Below, piece by piece: positions 803-50,816 of a stretch of DNA of 64,000 nt. Source of the stretch: Halorussus limi (GTDB taxonomy: Archaea > Halobacteriota > Halobacteria > Halobacteriales > Haladaptataceae); the NCBI RefSeq assembly GCF_023238205.1, contig NZ_CP096659.1:3117626-3181625 (forward strand). Reading direction: 5' to 3'. Within the stretch, counting starts at the first letter, position 1, and each line of letters starts with the position of its first letter. The translations under genes were made by a program, and so were the position numbers. The notes under the pieces were generated by a model that saw only the letters and a list, made by a program, of their open reading frames with translations, did no database searches and was not told the DNA's origin.

Positions 803-2389
803 ATGTCGCAGGAGACCATCGACGTGGCCGAGGTGAGCGCCGGGAAAGGGGGAACCGCCGGCGAACCCGGCGACCCCGTCGAACTGCCCGTCGTGGAGGT
901 GCTGACCGGCCGCGCGTTCATCACCGGAAAGTCCGGGAGCGGAAAGTCGAACACGATGAGCGTCGTCGCCGAGAAGCTCTTAGACGGCGGATACCCGGTG
1001 ATGCTCGTGGACACGGACGGGGAGTACTACGGCCTCAAAGAGGAGTACGAACTCCTCCACGCCGGGGCCGACGAGGAGTGCGACATCCAGGTCAACCCCG
1101 AACACGCCGAGCGACTCGCCTCGCTGGCTCTCGAGGACAACGTCCCAATTATCCTCGACGTGTCGGGCTACCTCAACGAGGAGGACGGCAAGGAACTGCT
1201 GAAGGCGGTCGCCCAGCAGTTGTTCGCCAAGGAGAAGAAACTCAAGAAGCCGTTCCTGATGGTGGTCGAGGAGGTCCACGAGTACATCCCCGAGGGCGGC
1301 GGGATGGACGAGTGCGGCCGCATGCTCATCAAAATCGGCAAGCGCGGGCGGAAACACGGACTGGGCATCGCGGGCATCAGCCAGCGCCCCGCCGACGTGA
1401 AGAAGGACTTCATCACCCAGTGCGACTGGCTGGTGTGGCATCGCCTCACGTGGAACAACGACACCAACGTCGTCGGGCGCATCCTCGGCAACGACTACGC
1501 CGACGCCATCGAGGACATGGGCGACGGCGAGGCGTTCATGACCACCGACTGGTCGGAGGAGACCCGCCGGGTCAAGTTCCACCGCAAGCAGACGTTCGAC
1601 GCCGGCGCGACGCCGGGTCTCGACGACTTCGAGCGCCCGGACCTCAAGTCGGTCAGCGACGACCTGGTGAGCGACCTCCGGGAGATAAGCGAGGAGGAGA
1701 GCCAGCGCGAGGACCGCATCGAGGAACTCCAGCAGGAACTCCGCGAGAAGGAGAACCACATCGAGGACCTCGAACGGCAGTTGGAGGAGGCCCGCGAGAT
1801 GGAGGAGGTCGCCGACAAGTTCGCCAAGGCGATGCTCGACACCTCGCGGAACCAGCGCGCGAACCCGTACGTCGGTACCGGCGGTAGCGGCGGGACGGTG
1901 CGGGGAGCGGACGCGCAACCCCCGCACGGACGACCCGGCGAGCAGGTCCAGCAGGCCGGCGAGCGGGCCCGGCAGGCGGACCTCGGCGGGTTCGAGCGGG
2001 GCGAGGCGAACGCCGAGTCCGAGTCGGAGGAGACCGAGGCGGGGGAGACCGAGAGCGACGCGGCCGACCGGAACCCCATCGACGCCATCCGGTCGGAACT
2101 CGACGCCCTCGACGGCGTCGAGCGCGGGATGCTGGCCCACTACCTCCGGCAGGGCCCGGCGACTCCCGTCGAGGCCCACGTCGTCGCCGGCGGGTCGGAG
2201 GACCGCGAACTCGCCTACAACCACAACCGGACCCTGCGCCAGCGCGGGTTCGTCCAGCACGCCGGGAGCGGCGAGTACGTCGCGGCCCTGCCGAGTCTGC
2301 TCGCGGCGCTGACCGACGGCGAGATGGACGACGACACCCGGAAAGAGGCATTGGAGGCGGTGGCCGAGGAACTGCCGGACGTGGAGTAG
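803..2389 (+). CDS. HerA/DUF87-type P-loop ATPase with coiled coil and C-terminal winged-helix-like region
   Basis: 528 residues from the ATG at 803; the frame is open further upstream but that part looks non-coding. Walker A GKSGSGKSN is at about residues 42-50, Walker B FLMVVEE at about 151-157, and a sensor-like SQRP at about 193-196, the layout of HerA/VirB4-type DNA-pumping ATPases (helicase HerA central domain, DUF87). A Glu/Arg-rich coiled coil follows at about 285-345, then an acidic linker, then a helical domain resembling a winged helix. It may translocate or remodel DNA; lying directly after dinB hints at DNA metabolism, but no nuclease partner (NurA) is next to it. The biochemical role is inferred. 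Confidence 0.8.
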   Translation: MSQETIDVAEVSAGKGGTAGEPGDPVELPVVEVLTGRAFITGKSGSGKSNTMSVVAEKLLDGGYPVMLVDTDGEYYGLKEEYELLHAGADEECDIQVNPEHAERLASLALEDNVPIILDVSGYLNEEDGKELLKAVAQQLFAKEKKLKKPFLMVVEEVHEYIPEGGGMDECGRMLIKIGKRGRKHGLGIAGISQRPADVKKDFITQCDWLVWHRLTWNNDTNVVGRILGNDYADAIEDMGDGEAFMTTDWSEETRRVKFHRKQTFDAGATPGLDDFERPDLKSVSDDLVSDLREISEEESQREDRIEELQQELREKENHIEDLERQLEEAREMEEVADKFAKAMLDTSRNQRANPYVGTGGSGGTVRGADAQPPHGRPGEQVQQAGERARQADLGGFERGEANAESESEETEAGETESDAADRNPIDAIRSELDALDGVERGMLAHYLRQGPATPVEAHVVAGGSEDRELAYNHNRTLRQRGFVQHAGSGEYVAALPSLLAALTDGEMDDDTRKEALEAVAEELPDVE

Positions 2390-3566: not shown

Positions 3567-5453
3567 TCAGACGTGTTCGTCCAGAAACGCCGCGATTCGC
3601 TCGAACATCTCGATGCGGTTGTCGAGTTTCGTGGTGTGGTGGCCCTCGTCCTCGAAGACCAGCGTCTCGACCGGGACGCCCTGCGATTCGACCTCGTCGG
3701 CTATCTGGCGGGCCTCGCCGACCGGGACGCGGGGGTCGTTCGCGCCGTGCTGGACGAACAGCGGGCACCGAATCTCGTCGGCCGAGTGGATGGGGCTGAT
3801 GGATTCGAGGAACTCGCGGTCGTCGGCGAGCGACCCGTACTCGGCCTCGCGGTGGGAGCGCCGCCAGTCGCCCGTGTTCTCCAGGAACGTCACCCAGTTG
3901 GCGATGCCGACGAAGTCCACCGCGGCCGCCCAGAGGTCGGGGTACTCCGTGATGGCCGCGAGGACCATGAACCCGCCGTACGAGCGGCCGTAGGCGACCA
4001 CGCCGTCGGGGTCGATTTGGGGACGGTCCCGGAGCCACTCGACCGCTTTCGCGATGTCCCGTACCGAGTCCATGCGCTTCTCCACGTCGTCGAGCGCGGC
4101 GTACTCCCGACCGTAGCCCGACGACCCCCGGACGTTCGGTTCGAAGACCGCGTACCCGGCGTCGAGGAAGTACTGACGAATCGGCCGGAACCACGGCCGA
4201 CGCTGGTGGTGCGGTCCGCCGTGGATGTCCACGACGACCGGGACCTCGCTGGTCTCGGGCCCTTCAGCTACACCGTCGGGGAGCGTGAAGTACGCCGGAA
4301 TCTCCCGGCCGTCGAACGTCTCGTAGCGCACGAGGTCCGGCGAGTCGTAGGCGTCGAGTTCGACGCCGCCCGGCGAGGGTCGGGTCCATCGCTCGGTCGG
4401 CACGGCGTCCAGCGACTCCGAAACCTCCTCGGGCGGGTCCGCGACGAAGACGGAGTGATTCAGGTCGGGCGCCGAGACGGTGGCGGCGACGCGCTCGCCG
4501 TCCGGGCCGAGCGTGAGGTCGTGGACCACGCCGTCGGGAATCTCGGCGTCCGCGAGAGCGGCCTCGGTCGCGTCGGTCAGCCTCCCGACTCGCAACTCCG
4601 AGTAGCCGTCTACGTTCCGGGTCAGCGCGAGTCGGCCGGTGGCGGCGTCGAGCGCGAACCCGTCGATGCTCCACTCGCCCCCGGAGACGACCGTCTCGGT
4701 CGAATCGGCGACCGCGTCCGCGTCGGTCGCGGCGGCGAGGTCGATGCGGACCAGTTCCTTCGCGTCGGCGTTCGCGTCGCTCAGGCAGTAGAGCGCGTCG
4801 CCGTCGGGACCGAAAATCGGCTGGCGGTAGCGGACCTGACCGTCGTGGGGCGTGACGTGGCGTCGCTCGCCGGTGGCCGCGTCCACGACGTAGAGGTCGT
4901 CGTCGGAACTCGCGCGCGAGCGCTGGACGACGAGTCGGTCGCCGTCGGGTCCCCACGCCGCGACGCTCAGGAAGCCTTCCTCGTCGCTCTCGCTGAGGAG
5001 TTCGGGGTCGCCCGAGTCGAGGTCCATCGCGTACACGTCGAAGGTCGCGGCGTCCCGCCGGTTGGCCGCGAACGCGATGCGGTCGCCGTCGGGGTGCCAC
5101 GCGCCCCAGCGGTGGATGGCGTCGGGGTCGTCGGTCAACTGCTCGACGGCGTTGGTCGCCGGGTCGAGGCGGAACAACTGGTCGTGTTCGTCGGCCCCGG
5201 CGTCCTTCCCGAAGACGACCGACCCGCCCGCGGGCGACCACGAGACGAACGAGACGCGCTCGTCGTAGAAGGTTCGCTGGCGGGGCCACGCGCCCGGTTC
5301 GTCGGCGGTCCAGACCTGCGTCGTGCCGGTGGTGTCCGCGAGGAAGGCGAGGCGACCGTCGGGCGCGAGCGTCGGTGTCGTCGTCTTACGCGCGGTGAAG
5401 TACCGCTTGACGTTCTCCGTCACGACTCCCGCGTCGCAGCGAGACTCATTCAA
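3567..5453 (-). CDS. S9 family peptidase (prolyl oligopeptidase / acylaminoacyl-peptidase type)
   Basis: 628 residues. The N-terminal half is a beta-propeller built of TolB-like repeats (PDGDRIAF, GPDGDRLVV, GPDGERVAA and others). The C-terminal half is an alpha/beta hydrolase with the nucleophile in GRSYGGF (Ser491), Asp573 in NDPRVP and His605 in EDEGHH, so the Ser-Asp-His triad is intact. It probably cleaves short peptides or acylated N-termini in the cytoplasm, as there is no signal peptide. The first ATG gives the start used; an in-frame GTG at 5423 ten codons later is an alternative. It lies downstream of tpiA on the same strand with an AT-rich, promoter-like 80-base gap. Confidence 0.88.
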   Translation of the reverse strand: MNESRCDAGVVTENVKRYFTARKTTTPTLAPDGRLAFLADTTGTTQVWTADEPGAWPRQRTFYDERVSFVSWSPAGGSVVFGKDAGADEHDQLFRLDPATNAVEQLTDDPDAIHRWGAWHPDGDRIAFAANRRDAATFDVYAMDLDSGDPELLSESDEEGFLSVAAWGPDGDRLVVQRSRASSDDDLYVVDAATGERRHVTPHDGQVRYRQPIFGPDGDALYCLSDANADAKELVRIDLAAATDADAVADSTETVVSGGEWSIDGFALDAATGRLALTRNVDGYSELRVGRLTDATEAALADAEIPDGVVHDLTLGPDGERVAATVSAPDLNHSVFVADPPEEVSESLDAVPTERWTRPSPGGVELDAYDSPDLVRYETFDGREIPAYFTLPDGVAEGPETSEVPVVVDIHGGPHHQRRPWFRPIRQYFLDAGYAVFEPNVRGSSGYGREYAALDDVEKRMDSVRDIAKAVEWLRDRPQIDPDGVVAYGRSYGGFMVLAAITEYPDLWAAAVDFVGIANWVTFLENTGDWRRSHREAEYGSLADDREFLESISPIHSADEIRCPLFVQHGANDPRVPVGEARQIADEVESQGVPVETLVFEDEGHHTTKLDNRIEMFERIAAFLDEHV

Positions 5454-6347: not shown

Positions 6348-6872
6348 TCAGTCCTTGCGCTTGACCACGTCGCCGAGGGTGTACTCGCCGGTAGAGCTAC
6401 CGCCGCTCCAGTCCTCGTCGTCGCCGGAACCGCCGGCGGTCAGTTGAATGTCGAGTTCGCGTTCGAGTTTCCGCTGGACCTCGTCGCTCGGGAGAACGTC
6501 GCCCCGTTCCAGTTTCCGGATGAGACTGGCCTTCTCGTTGAGTTCGTCGGCGAGGTCTTCCTGACTCATCCCGGTGCCCTCGCGGGCGTTCCGGATGCGG
6601 TCGTCGTAGTCTTGGGCGAGTTCGTCCATGTCGTCGAACATGTCCGAACGCCGCGATTGGGAGGAACTCGAAGACGTACTCGACGAGGACGACGAACTTC
6701 CGGAGGACGACGAACTCGTGGAGTACTTGGTAGACGTGGAACCGGCGTCGTCCTGCGTCTTGACCTCGGTCCCGAAGTCCGAGCAGTTGTCGCAGACGTC
6801 CAACTCGGCCCCCTCGACCTTGATGGTCTTCGGGGAACTCGTCTCGGCGCCGCACATCTCACACTGAACCAT
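6348..6872 (-). CDS. multiprotein bridging factor 1-type zinc-ribbon/HTH protein
   Basis: 174 residues from MVQCEMC; upstream in-frame codons look non-coding, and a TATA element (cttaaatt region, 6897-6904) is about 27 bases before this ATG. Cys4, Cys7, Cys27 and Cys30 form a zinc ribbon. A striking Ser-rich linker spans about residues 51-73. An XRE-type helix-turn-helix covers about 92-140 (GMSQEDLADELNEKASLIRK). This is the architecture of archaeal MBF1, which links transcription or translation machinery; in some archaea it binds the small ribosomal subunit. Which role applies here is not visible from sequence. Confidence 0.9.
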   Translation of the reverse strand: MVQCEMCGAETSSPKTIKVEGAELDVCDNCSDFGTEVKTQDDAGSTSTKYSTSSSSSGSSSSSSSTSSSSSQSRRSDMFDDMDELAQDYDDRIRNAREGTGMSQEDLADELNEKASLIRKLERGDVLPSDEVQRKLERELDIQLTAGGSGDDEDWSGGSSTGEYTLGDVVKRKD

Positions 6873-6960
6873 AGTAGGTGGTAGTCTGTCGCCGCTCTTA
6901 AATTCCACGCCGCGGAGACCGTCGAACTGCGACCGTCCGTGGGTCCGCGACCGACGACCG

Positions 6961-9513: not shown

Positions 9514-9689
9514 GTGAGAGAGGTGTGGGCGACTTGCCTTAAGACTGCTTACCTCCGGTAGCGCGGGGGAGCGCCACCGAACCGGAACCGCCCGAAATCG
9601 AGGGGTCCCCGACGCCCGGCGGTATTTTTGTCAGAATCCGCCCAGTACACATAAGGAAAATCCTGTGGTCGTTACTGTGGGGAGACACA

Positions 9690-10898
9690 ATGTCACGAGA
9701 AAATCGAAACAACTGGGGCAGCCACGACGAGCGGAGCCACGAGCGCAGTTCGCAGGGCGAAGGTGACACACGAGGCGGCCGCTACTCGGCGGGTGGCCGA
9801 GAGCGAGGGGAGTCCGGGCGACGACACCAGGGTGGTCAGCAGGATATGCCGGGCCAGCACCAGACGGGTCAGCATCAGCAGACTGGTCAGCATCAACAGT
9901 CCGGTCAGCAGGACACCCAATACGGAAGCAACCGTCAGCGACAGGGTGGCCACCAGCAGTCCGGTCAGCACCAGCAGTCCGGTCAGCACCAGCAGTCCGG
10001 TCAGCACCAGCAGTCCGGTCAGCACCACCAGACGGGGCAGCACCAGACCGGCCACGACCAGCAATCCGGTCAGCATCAGCAGACCGGCCACCACCAAACT
10101 GGTCAGCACCAGATGGGCGGCCGCGACATCCAAGAGCAGGGCCACCACCAGCAGACCGGTGGCCAGCACGGAAGCCACCAGCAGAGCAACCGATACGGAA
10201 ACCAGCGCGGCCAGCAGGGTAGCCAGCACCAGCAGGGTGGCCAGCACCACCAGGGCGGCCAGCACCAGCAGACCGGCCAGCACCAGCAGGGCGGCCGCCA
10301 TCAGAGTAGTCAGCGCCACGAGGTCGGACAGAATCAGGGTCGAGGACAGAGTCGCCAGCAGAGCGACGTCCACGAACTGAGCCAGCACGGCGGAAGCGGC
10401 GGCCAGTACACCGGCCACGACCAGCAGTCCGGCCAACAGACGGGCCAGCACGGCGGTCAGCCCACCAGCCACCAGACCAGCCAGCACCAGCAGTTCGGGA
10501 GCGACCAGCAGACCGGTCAACAGACGGGTCAGCACGGCGGCCAGCACCAGACAGGTCAGCACGAACGCTCGGGGCAACACCAGACTGGCCAACACGGTCA
10601 GACCGGTCAGCACCAGACCGGCGGCCAGCACCAGACCGACCAGTACGGGCAGACTACCGGCCAACGTGGCCAGACCGGTCGTCACCAGCAGTCCGGCCAG
10701 CAGACGGGCCAGCACCAGCAGGGCGGCCAACACGACCAGACCGGCCGCGAGCAGGGCCAGAACCAGTACGGCGGGAGTTCCGAGAGCGGATTCAGTCCGG
10801 TCCAGCAGACCATGATGCGCGGTCAGGAACGTCACGGCCGCCAGAGCGAACAGACCCGCGACGACGAGGAGTCGTCCCGGCGTCGCGGCGGCCGATAG
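9690..10898 (+). CDS. Gln/His/Gly-rich tandem-repeat protein, intrinsically disordered
   Basis: 402 residues, no signal peptide or membrane helix. The N-terminal ~45 residues are charged and Arg/Glu/Ser/Gly-rich. Residues ~46-365 are made almost entirely of short units such as GQHQQSGQ, GQHQQTGQ and GQHQTG. The C-terminal ~40 residues are charged again (GFSPVQQTMMRGQ, ending RRRGGR). Its lack of hydrophobic core and low acidity are highly unusual for a halophile. A GGGGAG Shine-Dalgarno-like stretch is 6 bases before the ATG. Possible roles (condensate former, matrix protein, metal binder through the many His) are speculation. A 380-residue Leu/Val/Ala-rich frame on the opposite strand is a shadow of the CAG/CAC repeats. 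Confidence 0.75.
   Translation: MSRENRNNWGSHDERSHERSSQGEGDTRGGRYSAGGRERGESGRRHQGGQQDMPGQHQTGQHQQTGQHQQSGQQDTQYGSNRQRQGGHQQSGQHQQSGQHQQSGQHQQSGQHHQTGQHQTGHDQQSGQHQQTGHHQTGQHQMGGRDIQEQGHHQQTGGQHGSHQQSNRYGNQRGQQGSQHQQGGQHHQGGQHQQTGQHQQGGRHQSSQRHEVGQNQGRGQSRQQSDVHELSQHGGSGGQYTGHDQQSGQQTGQHGGQPTSHQTSQHQQFGSDQQTGQQTGQHGGQHQTGQHERSGQHQTGQHGQTGQHQTGGQHQTDQYGQTTGQRGQTGRHQQSGQQTGQHQQGGQHDQTGREQGQNQYGGSSESGFSPVQQTMMRGQERHGRQSEQTRDDEESSRRRGGR
9951..10022 (+). repeat. four perfect 18-bp tandem repeats
   Basis: The unit caccagcagtccggtcag occurs four times head to tail without a mismatch, encoding HQQSGQ each time. It is the most homogeneous part of a degenerate repeat array spanning about 9.83-10.77 kb. 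Identity at synonymous positions points to recent expansion. Confidence 0.95.
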
Positions 10899-10948: not shown

Positions 10949-10959
10949 CGTCTTTTTTC
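10949..10959 (+). terminator. T-tract downstream of the repeat protein
   Basis: cgtcttttttc about 50 bases after the stop codon at 10898, a plausible archaeal transcription terminator. Confidence 0.4.
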
Positions 10960-11110: not shown

Positions 11111-12787
11111 ATGAGTGACGCGCCCGAAACCGACCGCGACGTAACGACGCCGGCGCGACGCGAGGGCGTCGACTACGACGAACTCGAATCCCTGCTCGGC
11201 GACCAGGTAATCGGACGTGAGACCCACCTCAACGCCGAGGGGTTCGTCGTTCGCCCGGACGCCGTGGAGTCGGTCCTCCGGACGCTCAAGCACGAGGCCG
11301 GGTTCGACCACCTCTCGCTGCTCACCGCCCAGGAGTACGAGGACCGCTACGAGAGCATCTACCACCTGACGAAGTACGACGACCGGACCCAAGAGGTCAG
11401 CGTGGTCGTGCCGACCAACAAGGACAATCCGTGGAACGAGTCGGCGGCGTCGGTGTACAAGACGGCGGAGTGGCACGAGCGCGAGGCCTACGACTTGGTG
11501 GGTATCGATTACGAGAACCACCCGGACCTCCGGCGCATCCTCCTGCCCGAGACGTGGCAGGGCCACCCGCTGAGCCTCGAATACGACCAGGACAAGCCCC
11601 AAGTCGTCTCGCTGAAAGAGCACGTCAACCCGCTTGCGAACAGTTCGGACGAGACGACCGAGTCGGACACGATGTTCCTGAACATCGGTCCCCACCACCC
11701 TGCGACCCACGGCGTGCTCCACCTCAAGACGGTGTTGGACGGCGAGCAGGTCGCGGCCGTCGAACCCGACATCGGCTACCTCCACCGCTGCGAGGAGCAG
11801 ATGTGCCAGAGCTGTAACTACCGCTACCAGATTATGCCCTACCCCGACCGGTGGGACTACACCGCCAACATGCCGAACGAGTGGGCGTACGCTCGGGTGG
11901 CGGAGGACCTGAACGACATCGAGGTGCCCGAGTACGCCCAAGTCATCCGGACGATGGCGGTCGAGTTGGCCCGCATCATGGGCCACATGCTCGCGCTCGG
12001 GACCTTCGCGCTCGACGTGTACGGCGACTTCACGGCCATCTTCATGTACGCCATCCGGGACCGGGAAATCGTCCAGAACATCTTGGAGGACCTCACCGGC
12101 CAGCGCATGATGTTCAACTACTTCCGGTTGGGTGGCGTGGTCTGGGACCTGCCCGAACCCCGCGACGAGTTCTTCGACAAGATTCGGGACTTCCTCGACG
12201 GCCTGCCAGAGCGCATCGAGGAGTACCACGCCATGATGACCGAGAACGAAATCTTCCAGAAGCGGACGGTCGATACCGGAGTCATCGACGCCGAGACCGC
12301 CAAGGACTACGGCTGTACAGGTCCGGTCGCCCGCGGGTCGGGCGTCGATTACGACGTGCGCCGCGACGACCCCTACGGCTACTACGACGAACTCGACTGG
12401 GAGGTCGTCACCGAACCCTACGGGGACAACTACTCGCGCGTGTTGGTCCGCATGCAGGAGGTCGAGGAGTCCGCGAAAATTATCGGTCAATGCGTCGACA
12501 TCCTGGAGGACTGGCCGGAAGAGGAGCGCAACATCCAGTCGAACGTTCCCCGGACACTCAAGCCCGACCCCGACACCGAAATCTATCGCTCCGTCGAGAT
12601 AGCGAAGGGCGAACTCGGCATCTACATCCGGTCGGACGGGACCAACCAGCCGGCACGGTTCAAGATTCGGAGCCCCTGTTTCAACAACCTCCACGCGTTG
12701 GGAGAGATGGCCGAGGGCGAGTACGTCCCCGACCTCGTGGCCGCGCTGGGGAGTCTGGACATCGTGCTGGGGTCTGTGGACCGGTAG
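11111..12787 (+). CDS. nuoCD: NADH dehydrogenase-like (complex I) subunit CD fusion
   Basis: 558 residues from ATG 11111 (MSDAPETDRD). The first ~190 residues are the NuoC (30 kDa) domain, with the signature around EWHEREAYDLVGIDYENHPD and RRILLPETWQGHPL. After a linker comes the full NuoD (49 kDa) domain: NIGPHHPATHG, PYPDRWDY, and the C-terminal quinone-pocket motif GSLDIVLGSVDR. In haloarchaea, as in other archaea, the complex lacks the NADH-input module and probably oxidises ferredoxin or another donor. No other nuo gene is in the window: flanks are the repeat protein and a convergent SHOCT gene. The region EEQMCQSCNYRY carries extra cysteines. Confidence 0.92.
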   Translation: MSDAPETDRDVTTPARREGVDYDELESLLGDQVIGRETHLNAEGFVVRPDAVESVLRTLKHEAGFDHLSLLTAQEYEDRYESIYHLTKYDDRTQEVSVVVPTNKDNPWNESAASVYKTAEWHEREAYDLVGIDYENHPDLRRILLPETWQGHPLSLEYDQDKPQVVSLKEHVNPLANSSDETTESDTMFLNIGPHHPATHGVLHLKTVLDGEQVAAVEPDIGYLHRCEEQMCQSCNYRYQIMPYPDRWDYTANMPNEWAYARVAEDLNDIEVPEYAQVIRTMAVELARIMGHMLALGTFALDVYGDFTAIFMYAIRDREIVQNILEDLTGQRMMFNYFRLGGVVWDLPEPRDEFFDKIRDFLDGLPERIEEYHAMMTENEIFQKRTVDTGVIDAETAKDYGCTGPVARGSGVDYDVRRDDPYGYYDELDWEVVTEPYGDNYSRVLVRMQEVEESAKIIGQCVDILEDWPEEERNIQSNVPRTLKPDPDTEIYRSVEIAKGELGIYIRSDGTNQPARFKIRSPCFNNLHALGEMAEGEYVPDLVAALGSLDIVLGSVDR

Positions 12788-50306: not shown

Positions 50307-50816
50307 TCGCGACTCGTTCCTGCTTTCTTTTCCGCCGATAGCGTCGCGGCCGTCGAACGAGCGACGAGCGCCGGGAGGCCTCGAACGAATCGAGAGCCTT
50401 AGCGGCGAGCGGAGCGTTCCGGAGGCGAACGGAAAATTTCGGAGGTTAACGGAGGATTCTGGAGGCGAACAGCGGGGTCGGGGTGAACGGAGGGCCGACT
50501 GCGCCAGCGGGGACCGCGGGCGATACCGCGAAGGAAGGCTGGCTACGCGAGACCGCCGCGGGGGTCAGGGCGACCTGACTGGTCGGGAGGGCTGTCTGTC
50601 GGGGACCCGGGCGGTCCGAGGAGGTCGGGTGCGACCTCCACGTTTACCTGCACGGTCGGCCGTATTCAACTCTATCCGGATACAATCTATACTATCGAAG
50701 TAAAGGATAGTATCGATACAATCTATACTATCGACACTACTCATTCTACGGTCGTCGTGACCGAAACCGACGGACCGGCGAATTACCGCGGACCGTCCGA
50801 TAGGAGAAGTAGCGCG
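50307..50816 (+). other. 510-base repeat-bearing gap between convergent genes
   Basis: No gene seen. A pyrimidine run (gctttcttttcc, ~50323-50334) may terminate the FKBP transcript. At 50421, 50441 and 50461 a 12-base unit GGAGGYKAACRG recurs with exact 20-base spacing, with a weaker fourth copy near 50480. At 50673-50734 an AT-rich cluster has a palindrome and two 20-bp direct repeats separated by an inverted half-site, described separately. Confidence 0.7.
50679..50734 (+). repeat. two perfect 20-bp direct repeats with alternating inverted half-sites
   Basis: gatacaatctatactatcga occurs at 50679-50698 and 50715-50734. Between them gatagtat (50706-50713) is the exact reverse complement of atactatc found in both copies (50689-50696, 50725-50732), so the RNA could form either of two exclusive hairpins. 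A 10-base palindrome tatccggata precedes it at 50673-50682. Confidence 0.9.

Follow-up and report, generated by a model that had tools for sequence, protein, structure and literature searches.

What role could an almost uncharged protein, predicted to be disordered and conserved across one family, play in a cytoplasm of molar KCl? The question is raised by an open reading frame in the window, that is, the whole 64,000-nt stretch of Halorussus DNA that was analysed:

9690..10898, plus strand: gene of a Gln/His/Gly-rich, putatively disordered protein, open from ATG to TAG

Acidic surfaces keep haloarchaeal proteins soluble in molar KCl (PMC6384707), and the 50 genes called in the window have median values of pI 4.4, 19% D+E, 2% Q and 1.7% Lys. 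The 402-aa product consists of 29.1% Q, 20.9% G, 11.4% H (46 residues), 9.0% S, 7.7% R, 7.0% T and 7.2% D+E, and contains neither Lys nor Cys. The hydrophobic set AVILMFWC accounts for 3.5% (14 residues, three of them Phe or Trp) and Tyr for 1.5%; the GRAVY score is -2.20, the pI 9.3, and the net charge at neutral pH almost zero (+0.005 per residue). This make-up, basic, without Lys and with few acids, is the opposite of the norm for the salty haloarchaeal cytoplasm, in line with the original prediction, which had called the protein hardly acidic. The full protein matched nothing in Pfam (E <= 0.1), NCBIfam, PDB (E <= 0.01) or Rfam, and no account of such a haloarchaeal protein was found in the literature available as open-access text. 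The product represents a new protein family, restricted to one archaeal family and of a general kind that is known, the low-complexity disordered proteins.

The gene is conserved and protein-coding in Halorussus

An ORF of this type might be spurious, or might be decaying repeat DNA: its sequence is a low-complexity repeat, the antisense frame is open too, and a copy in a Haladaptatus genome is frameshifted. Against this, a whole-genome protein search gave matches in 14 of the 28 genomes of the family, all of them Halorussus, and motif profiles combined with a reading of the genomic slot extended this to an intact gene, from ATG to stop, in 18/18 Halorussus. Between the close pair G012 and G026, 7, 13 and 50 substitutions fell at the three codon positions in turn, and pN/pS was 0.18 in the sense frame versus 1.89 in the antisense frame. 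By these measures the sense frame is under purifying selection, and the gene is conserved and protein-coding, not decaying sequence. Frameshifted copies in close strains had been named beforehand as the sign of decay; every Halorussus copy proved intact. The single frameshifted copy is that of Haladaptatus G008 (L238), where the frame is lost after ~30 codons; this is a draft genome and a sequencing error is possible. We also considered the 380-aa antisense ORF (9693-10835) as a gene and rejected it (antisense pN/pS 1.25-1.89); that frame stays open as a by-product of Gln/His/Gly codon use. Since the promoter-like block and the islands described below are conserved as well, a spurious or decaying origin is extremely improbable.

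A conserved block upstream and a fixed place beside hisC

Two further features flank the coding sequence:

9629..9657, plus strand: conserved promoter-like block TGTCAGAATCCGCCCAGTACACATAAGGA, with TAAG 38 bp before the ATG
10953..10958, plus strand: oligo-T tract after the stop codon, candidate archaeal terminator, comparable in most Halorussus orthologues

The block has the form TGTCA-N3-TCCGCCCAGTA-N3-NTAAGGA, a few bases varying among some species. It was found with few base changes in 17/18 Halorussus and in a reduced form in G016, its TAAG lying 37-42 bp upstream of the ATG across the genus, and a related GCC[AG]..AC..NTAAG block occurs in Haladaptatus and Halomicrococcus. When five genomes were searched with up to 3 mismatches, it preceded this gene in 4/4 Halorussus tested and appeared at one extra site in G012; the whole genome from which the window comes holds one match. 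As a regulon search, the block therefore returned the gene itself and one G012 paralogue, and nothing more. This family paralogue (L247, ~1500-2100, reverse strand), which the protein search had missed and which is known only through the block, starts MARNTRSRWGG and carries 12 His at its end. A scan for bacterial-type promoters and terminators, which is unsuited to archaea, found none.

In Halorussus the gene is flanked on one side by the divergent hisC and on the other, usually after an intervening solitary nuoCD, by a luciferase-like gene, and the hisC-adjacent slot is kept in 18/18. In Haladaptatus, a Gln/Arg-rich ORF separates hisC from the luciferase-like gene in all nine genomes and is 119-215 aa long (107 aa if frameshifted), while in Halomicrococcus the counterpart follows the luciferase-like gene, one gene further from hisC. 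At 22 loci from other families, no ORF of low hydrophobicity lay beside hisC (0/22). As judged from these genomes, the protein occurs only in the family of Halorussus and Haladaptatus. In global comparison with the Haladaptatus proteins, the window protein scores no better than shuffles do (z 0.6 and below); the relation between them rests on the slot, the promoter-like block and a shared motif.

A functional link to nuoCD was considered and rejected: G015 and G016 have no nuoCD in the slot, and the Haladaptatus gene is present without it. This neighbour is incidental. In the window, the solitary nuoCD (11111-12787) is a fusion of the complex I 30/49-kDa subunits, and a further copy with 84% identity lies at G000:C1:2600437-2602068. 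In G025 (L242), the copy at this locus consists of separate nuoC and nuoD genes, after which come more complex I-like genes.

Other Gln-rich proteins turned up outside the family. In family f7, Gln/Arg/His-rich proteins starting MTHHQH or MPHHQH (L164:5775-6608 and L165 ~3700-5000, minus strand) are encoded divergently from an acidic gene with an NQYGG motif, a few kb from nuoCD. Although they share the MTHHQH start with the Haladaptatus Gln/Arg-rich proteins, homology between the two was unsupported over composition-matched shuffles (z about 1.2). Adjoining nuoCD in the same family (L165:7266-7895 and L164:2124-2777) is a ~210-aa protein with Gln-rich ends and the core TCIRVCQDIGELADLNARMIARDS, which had no Pfam match above the cut-off. 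Viral contigs and plasmids, searched with one query that was an approximate C-terminal peptide among others, held no relative, and a match in Nonomuraea over 10% of the query was taken as compositional. Elsewhere in the window, 6348-6908 (minus strand) encodes a zinc-ribbon and helix-turn-helix protein with a linker of almost pure serine, which we take to be MBF1-like, and the repeat scan found two tandem arrays, at 50404-50470 (20-bp units) and 50679-50734 (18-bp units), the second of them AT-rich.

A repeat body of free length is interrupted by conserved islands

Within the coding sequence we distinguished the following elements ahead of the C-terminus:

9951..10022, plus strand: four identical 18-bp units (HQQSGQ x4) from the repeat scan, a recent expansion
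9690..9800, plus strand: N-terminal block MSRENRNNWG...RYSAGGR, residues 1-37, from the Halorussus alignment
10116..10142, plus strand: island GGRDIQEQG, residues 143-151, from alignment A1, in about half of Halorussus
10299..10430, plus strand: double island SSQRHEVGQNQGRGQSR and DVHELSQHGGSGGQYTGH, profile A5

The 18-mer CACCAGCAGTCCGGTCAG occurs four times identically, starting at 9951, 9969, 9987 and 10005. Among 300 codon shuffles, the most frequent 18-mer occurred once in 261, twice in 38 and three times in one, and never four times; the repeat is not shared with G014 or G024, which bears out the recent expansion first read from these units. Period 6 is likewise real, the lag-6 identity being 0.308 against 0.162 +/- 0.017 in shuffles. 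The claim that about 320 residues consist of repeat units stands as to this periodicity but not as to its extent: strict G[QH][HQ]+[ST] units cover only 106 residues, the remainder of the array is degenerate, and non-repeat islands break it up. The expected variation in repeat number was found among the Halorussus orthologues, whose length ranges from 194 to 429 aa with composition and islands kept, and recent species-specific tandem expansions have arisen separately in G000 (77 bp), G021 (79 bp) and G022 (68 bp).

Read along the protein, the islands are RYS.GGR near the N-terminus, then GGRDIQEQG, QRHEVGQNQGRG and VHELSQHGGSGGQY, and finally a C-terminal pair of NQYGG and SPVQQTMMR. R31, Y32, S33, G35, G36 and R37 are invariant among 15 aligned Halorussus; the N-terminal block is missing in G016. 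Profile A5 scored E 4e-22 on the window protein and reached E <= 6e-14 in a total of 12 Halorussus genomes, was marginal in G027 (0.0074), and found nothing convincing beyond the genus. Across 30 family and candidate proteins, [RK]Y[GS] occurs 75 times versus 6.7 expected from shuffles. The sequences thus describe a conserved gene that has a conserved promoter-like block to itself and encodes islands set in a repeat body free to vary in length. The original prediction had noted the array and missed the islands, among them the most constrained one, at the C-terminus.

The C-terminal motif extends to acidic proteins of other haloarchaea

Foremost among the conserved islands is NQYGGSSESGFSPVQQTMMRG:

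10758..10823, plus strand: C-terminal motif QNQYGGSSESGFSPVQQTMMRG, residues 357-378, most constrained block

Mean pN was 0.13 in this block versus 0.34-0.36 in the arrays. The full NQYGG...SPVQQT motif is present in 17/18 Halorussus and 3/9 Haladaptatus, and is degenerate or absent in the rest. We searched 392 genomes with a profile (A2) built from Halorussus C-termini only. It retrieved Haladaptatus proteins (E 6e-12 to 3e-9) and also, in genus g39 of another family, acidic proteins of 95-105 aa (E per genome from 8e-6 to 0.03). Once hits had been added to the profile in two rounds, acidic motif proteins of 46-105 aa emerged in families f4, f5 and f7, and at least one Haladaptatus genome proved to have a second copy that is acidic; E-values of these later rounds are not independent for sequences used in building the profile. 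In the phylum sample outside the order no match was convincing (best E 0.007), and against PDB the motif profile gave only two chance matches of 8 residues (E 0.14 and 3.2). Across haloarchaea the consensus is roughly [NT]QYGG-x(5,6)-[SD][PA]-V-[EQ]QT-x-[MR]. Downstream of the acidic motif genes of g39 come a DUF2243 gene and then a manganese catalase. At L160:4520-4837 and L161:4529-4810, the acidic NQYGG protein has a tandem acidic neighbour with the shortened motif SPVEQTMMDSD, just beyond which the DUF2243 and manganese catalase genes follow.

The small acidic proteins carry the same motif as the window protein but differ in length (46-105 aa), in their Asp/Glu-rich body and in their neighbourhoods; the likeness seen between them is that of the motif. 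It is conceivable, though rather unlikely in our estimate, that a short linear motif of haloarchaea, docking one partner, forms the functional core and that the low-complexity body attached to it is exchangeable. That body would be Gln/His/Gly-rich in Halorussus, Gln/Arg-rich in Haladaptatus and Asp/Glu-rich in the other families, the Halorussus one serving as a condensate scaffold.

The protein is predicted to be disordered and is probably cytoplasmic

AlphaFold gave a mean pLDDT of 44, with every residue below 70 and no secondary structure, from a shallow alignment of six sequences that makes this weak taken alone; on the charge-hydropathy plot, 30/30 tabulated proteins fell on the disordered side. 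The protein is predicted to be almost entirely unstructured. Disorder predictors overpredict in halophiles (PMC6384707), which mainly concerns acidic proteins, and the 402-aa protein is not acidic. Extracellular matrix had been put forward among its candidate functions, and the composition does loosely resemble that of matrix and barrier proteins, a resemblance that is inference only. However, the N-terminus MSRENRNNWGSHDERSHERSS lacks a hydrophobic stretch, a Tat motif and a lipobox, and the sequence contains no signal peptide, transmembrane segment or anchor. With no visible export signal the protein is probably cytoplasmic, and a matrix or cell-surface role is very improbable.

Metal binding, nucleic acid binding and soluble protection

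Metal binding through dozens of His had also been proposed, and the protein might bind or buffer Ni, Cu, Zn or Co with its 46 His. Such binding is possible, given that three orthologues (G012, G020 and G026) have 9-His runs and that the G012 paralogue with the same promoter-like block has 12 consecutive His. Yet His content ranges among orthologues from 11.4% down to 4% in G019 and 3.4% in G016, and is 4-9% in the Haladaptatus counterparts; Cys is absent, and no metal transporter or metalloregulator was seen beside the gene. Because His content is not conserved, metal binding would be secondary at best, and as the main function it is quite doubtful.

The Arg/Gly/Tyr islands and basic ends could instead bind RNA or DNA, making the protein a nucleic acid chaperone. 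A pI of 9.3-11.8 in 18/18 Halorussus proteins, 17-29% Arg in intact Haladaptatus versions, the [RK]Y[GS] islands and an RRRGGR end are consistent with this, whereas the near-zero net charge at neutral pH, the weakness of electrostatic binding in molar KCl and the lack of any known RNA-binding domain argue against it. On balance we hold this reading to be unlikely.

A stronger candidate is a soluble protectant of the hydrophilin type, which would be abundant and, without condensing, would shield other proteins when cells dry out or osmotic conditions change. Hydrophilins are defined by Gly > 6%, GRAVY < -1, mean hydrophilicity > 1 and induction by water stress (PMC4190154). Drying and dilution are faced by salt-lake organisms, and the Gly content (20.9%) and GRAVY (-2.2) agree with the definition, but mean hydrophilicity on the scale of Hopp and Woods, whom that paper cites, is only 0.36; as it falls short on this third sequence criterion, we did not file the protein as a hydrophilin. 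Like hydrophilins and LEA class 2 proteins (dehydrins), it is rich in Gly, very low in hydropathy and putatively disordered; unlike them, it stays below 1 on the Hopp-Woods scale and has no Lys-rich segments, and no LEA or dehydrin Pfam family matched at E <= 0.1. We judge this possibility somewhat unlikely as the whole answer, but soluble protection without condensation would fit the sequence about equally well as condensation does.

A possible condensate in molar KCl

The reading we favour, at a probability of about 0.4, is that of a cytoplasmic, rapidly evolving disordered protein that would self-associate in molar KCl and recruit a partner through its C-terminal motif. Condensate formation, one of the candidate functions in the original prediction, is plausible. 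The uncharged Gln/Gly/Ser/Thr body would act as spacer, and islands of Arg, His and Tyr ([RK]Y[GS], QYGG) as stickers. With charge screened in the molar-KCl cytoplasm and no acidic solubilising surface on the protein, self-association could yield a condensate or gel, which would protect or organise cell contents, probably under stress, while the C-terminal motif docks the partner. Disorder and location are here predicted, and condensation, protection and docking are inferred steps. Such a protein would work in the manner of filaggrin or a hydrophilin, not as an enzyme. It counts against this reading that in Halorussus none of the neighbouring genes is linked to stress.

Two known systems lend analogies. 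Above 1.5 M KCl, FUS condenses a second time, by way of non-ionic contacts (PMC7889641), and FUS-type prion-like domains likewise pair spacers of Gln, Gly and Ser with islands of Tyr and Arg and contain QYGG and RYG motifs. The window protein differs from them in its many His and in lacking an RNA-binding domain; its Tyr content of only 1.5% and three Phe+Trp residues provide far fewer aromatic stickers, which counts against condensation. Profilaggrin (10.2% His, Arg bias 0.885) helps to form keratohyalin granules, which arise by phase separation (PMC8348711); the corresponding values here are 11.4% and 1.0. Profilaggrin and hornerin (S100 fused-type proteins) also have long Gln/Gly/Ser/His/Arg repeats, ~10% His, Arg over Lys, disorder and variable repeat number, whereas the window protein is archaeal, 10-fold shorter and without an S100 domain (no Pfam match). 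The likeness is a comparison of how the proteins might work and not a claim of sequence homology, and condensation of the archaeal protein is putative. Arg/(Arg+Lys) is 0.88-1.0 in family proteins, which is weak evidence because haloarchaea are low in Lys anyway.

If the C-terminal motif is indeed a docking motif with an exchangeable body, Halorussus would be using, in its salt-in cytoplasm, a scaffold for condensates that is almost uncharged and tolerates salt. The use of condensates by salt-in archaea becomes a directly testable question, and the C-terminal motif, carried by both acidic and non-acidic putatively disordered proteins, offers a handle for finding the partner.
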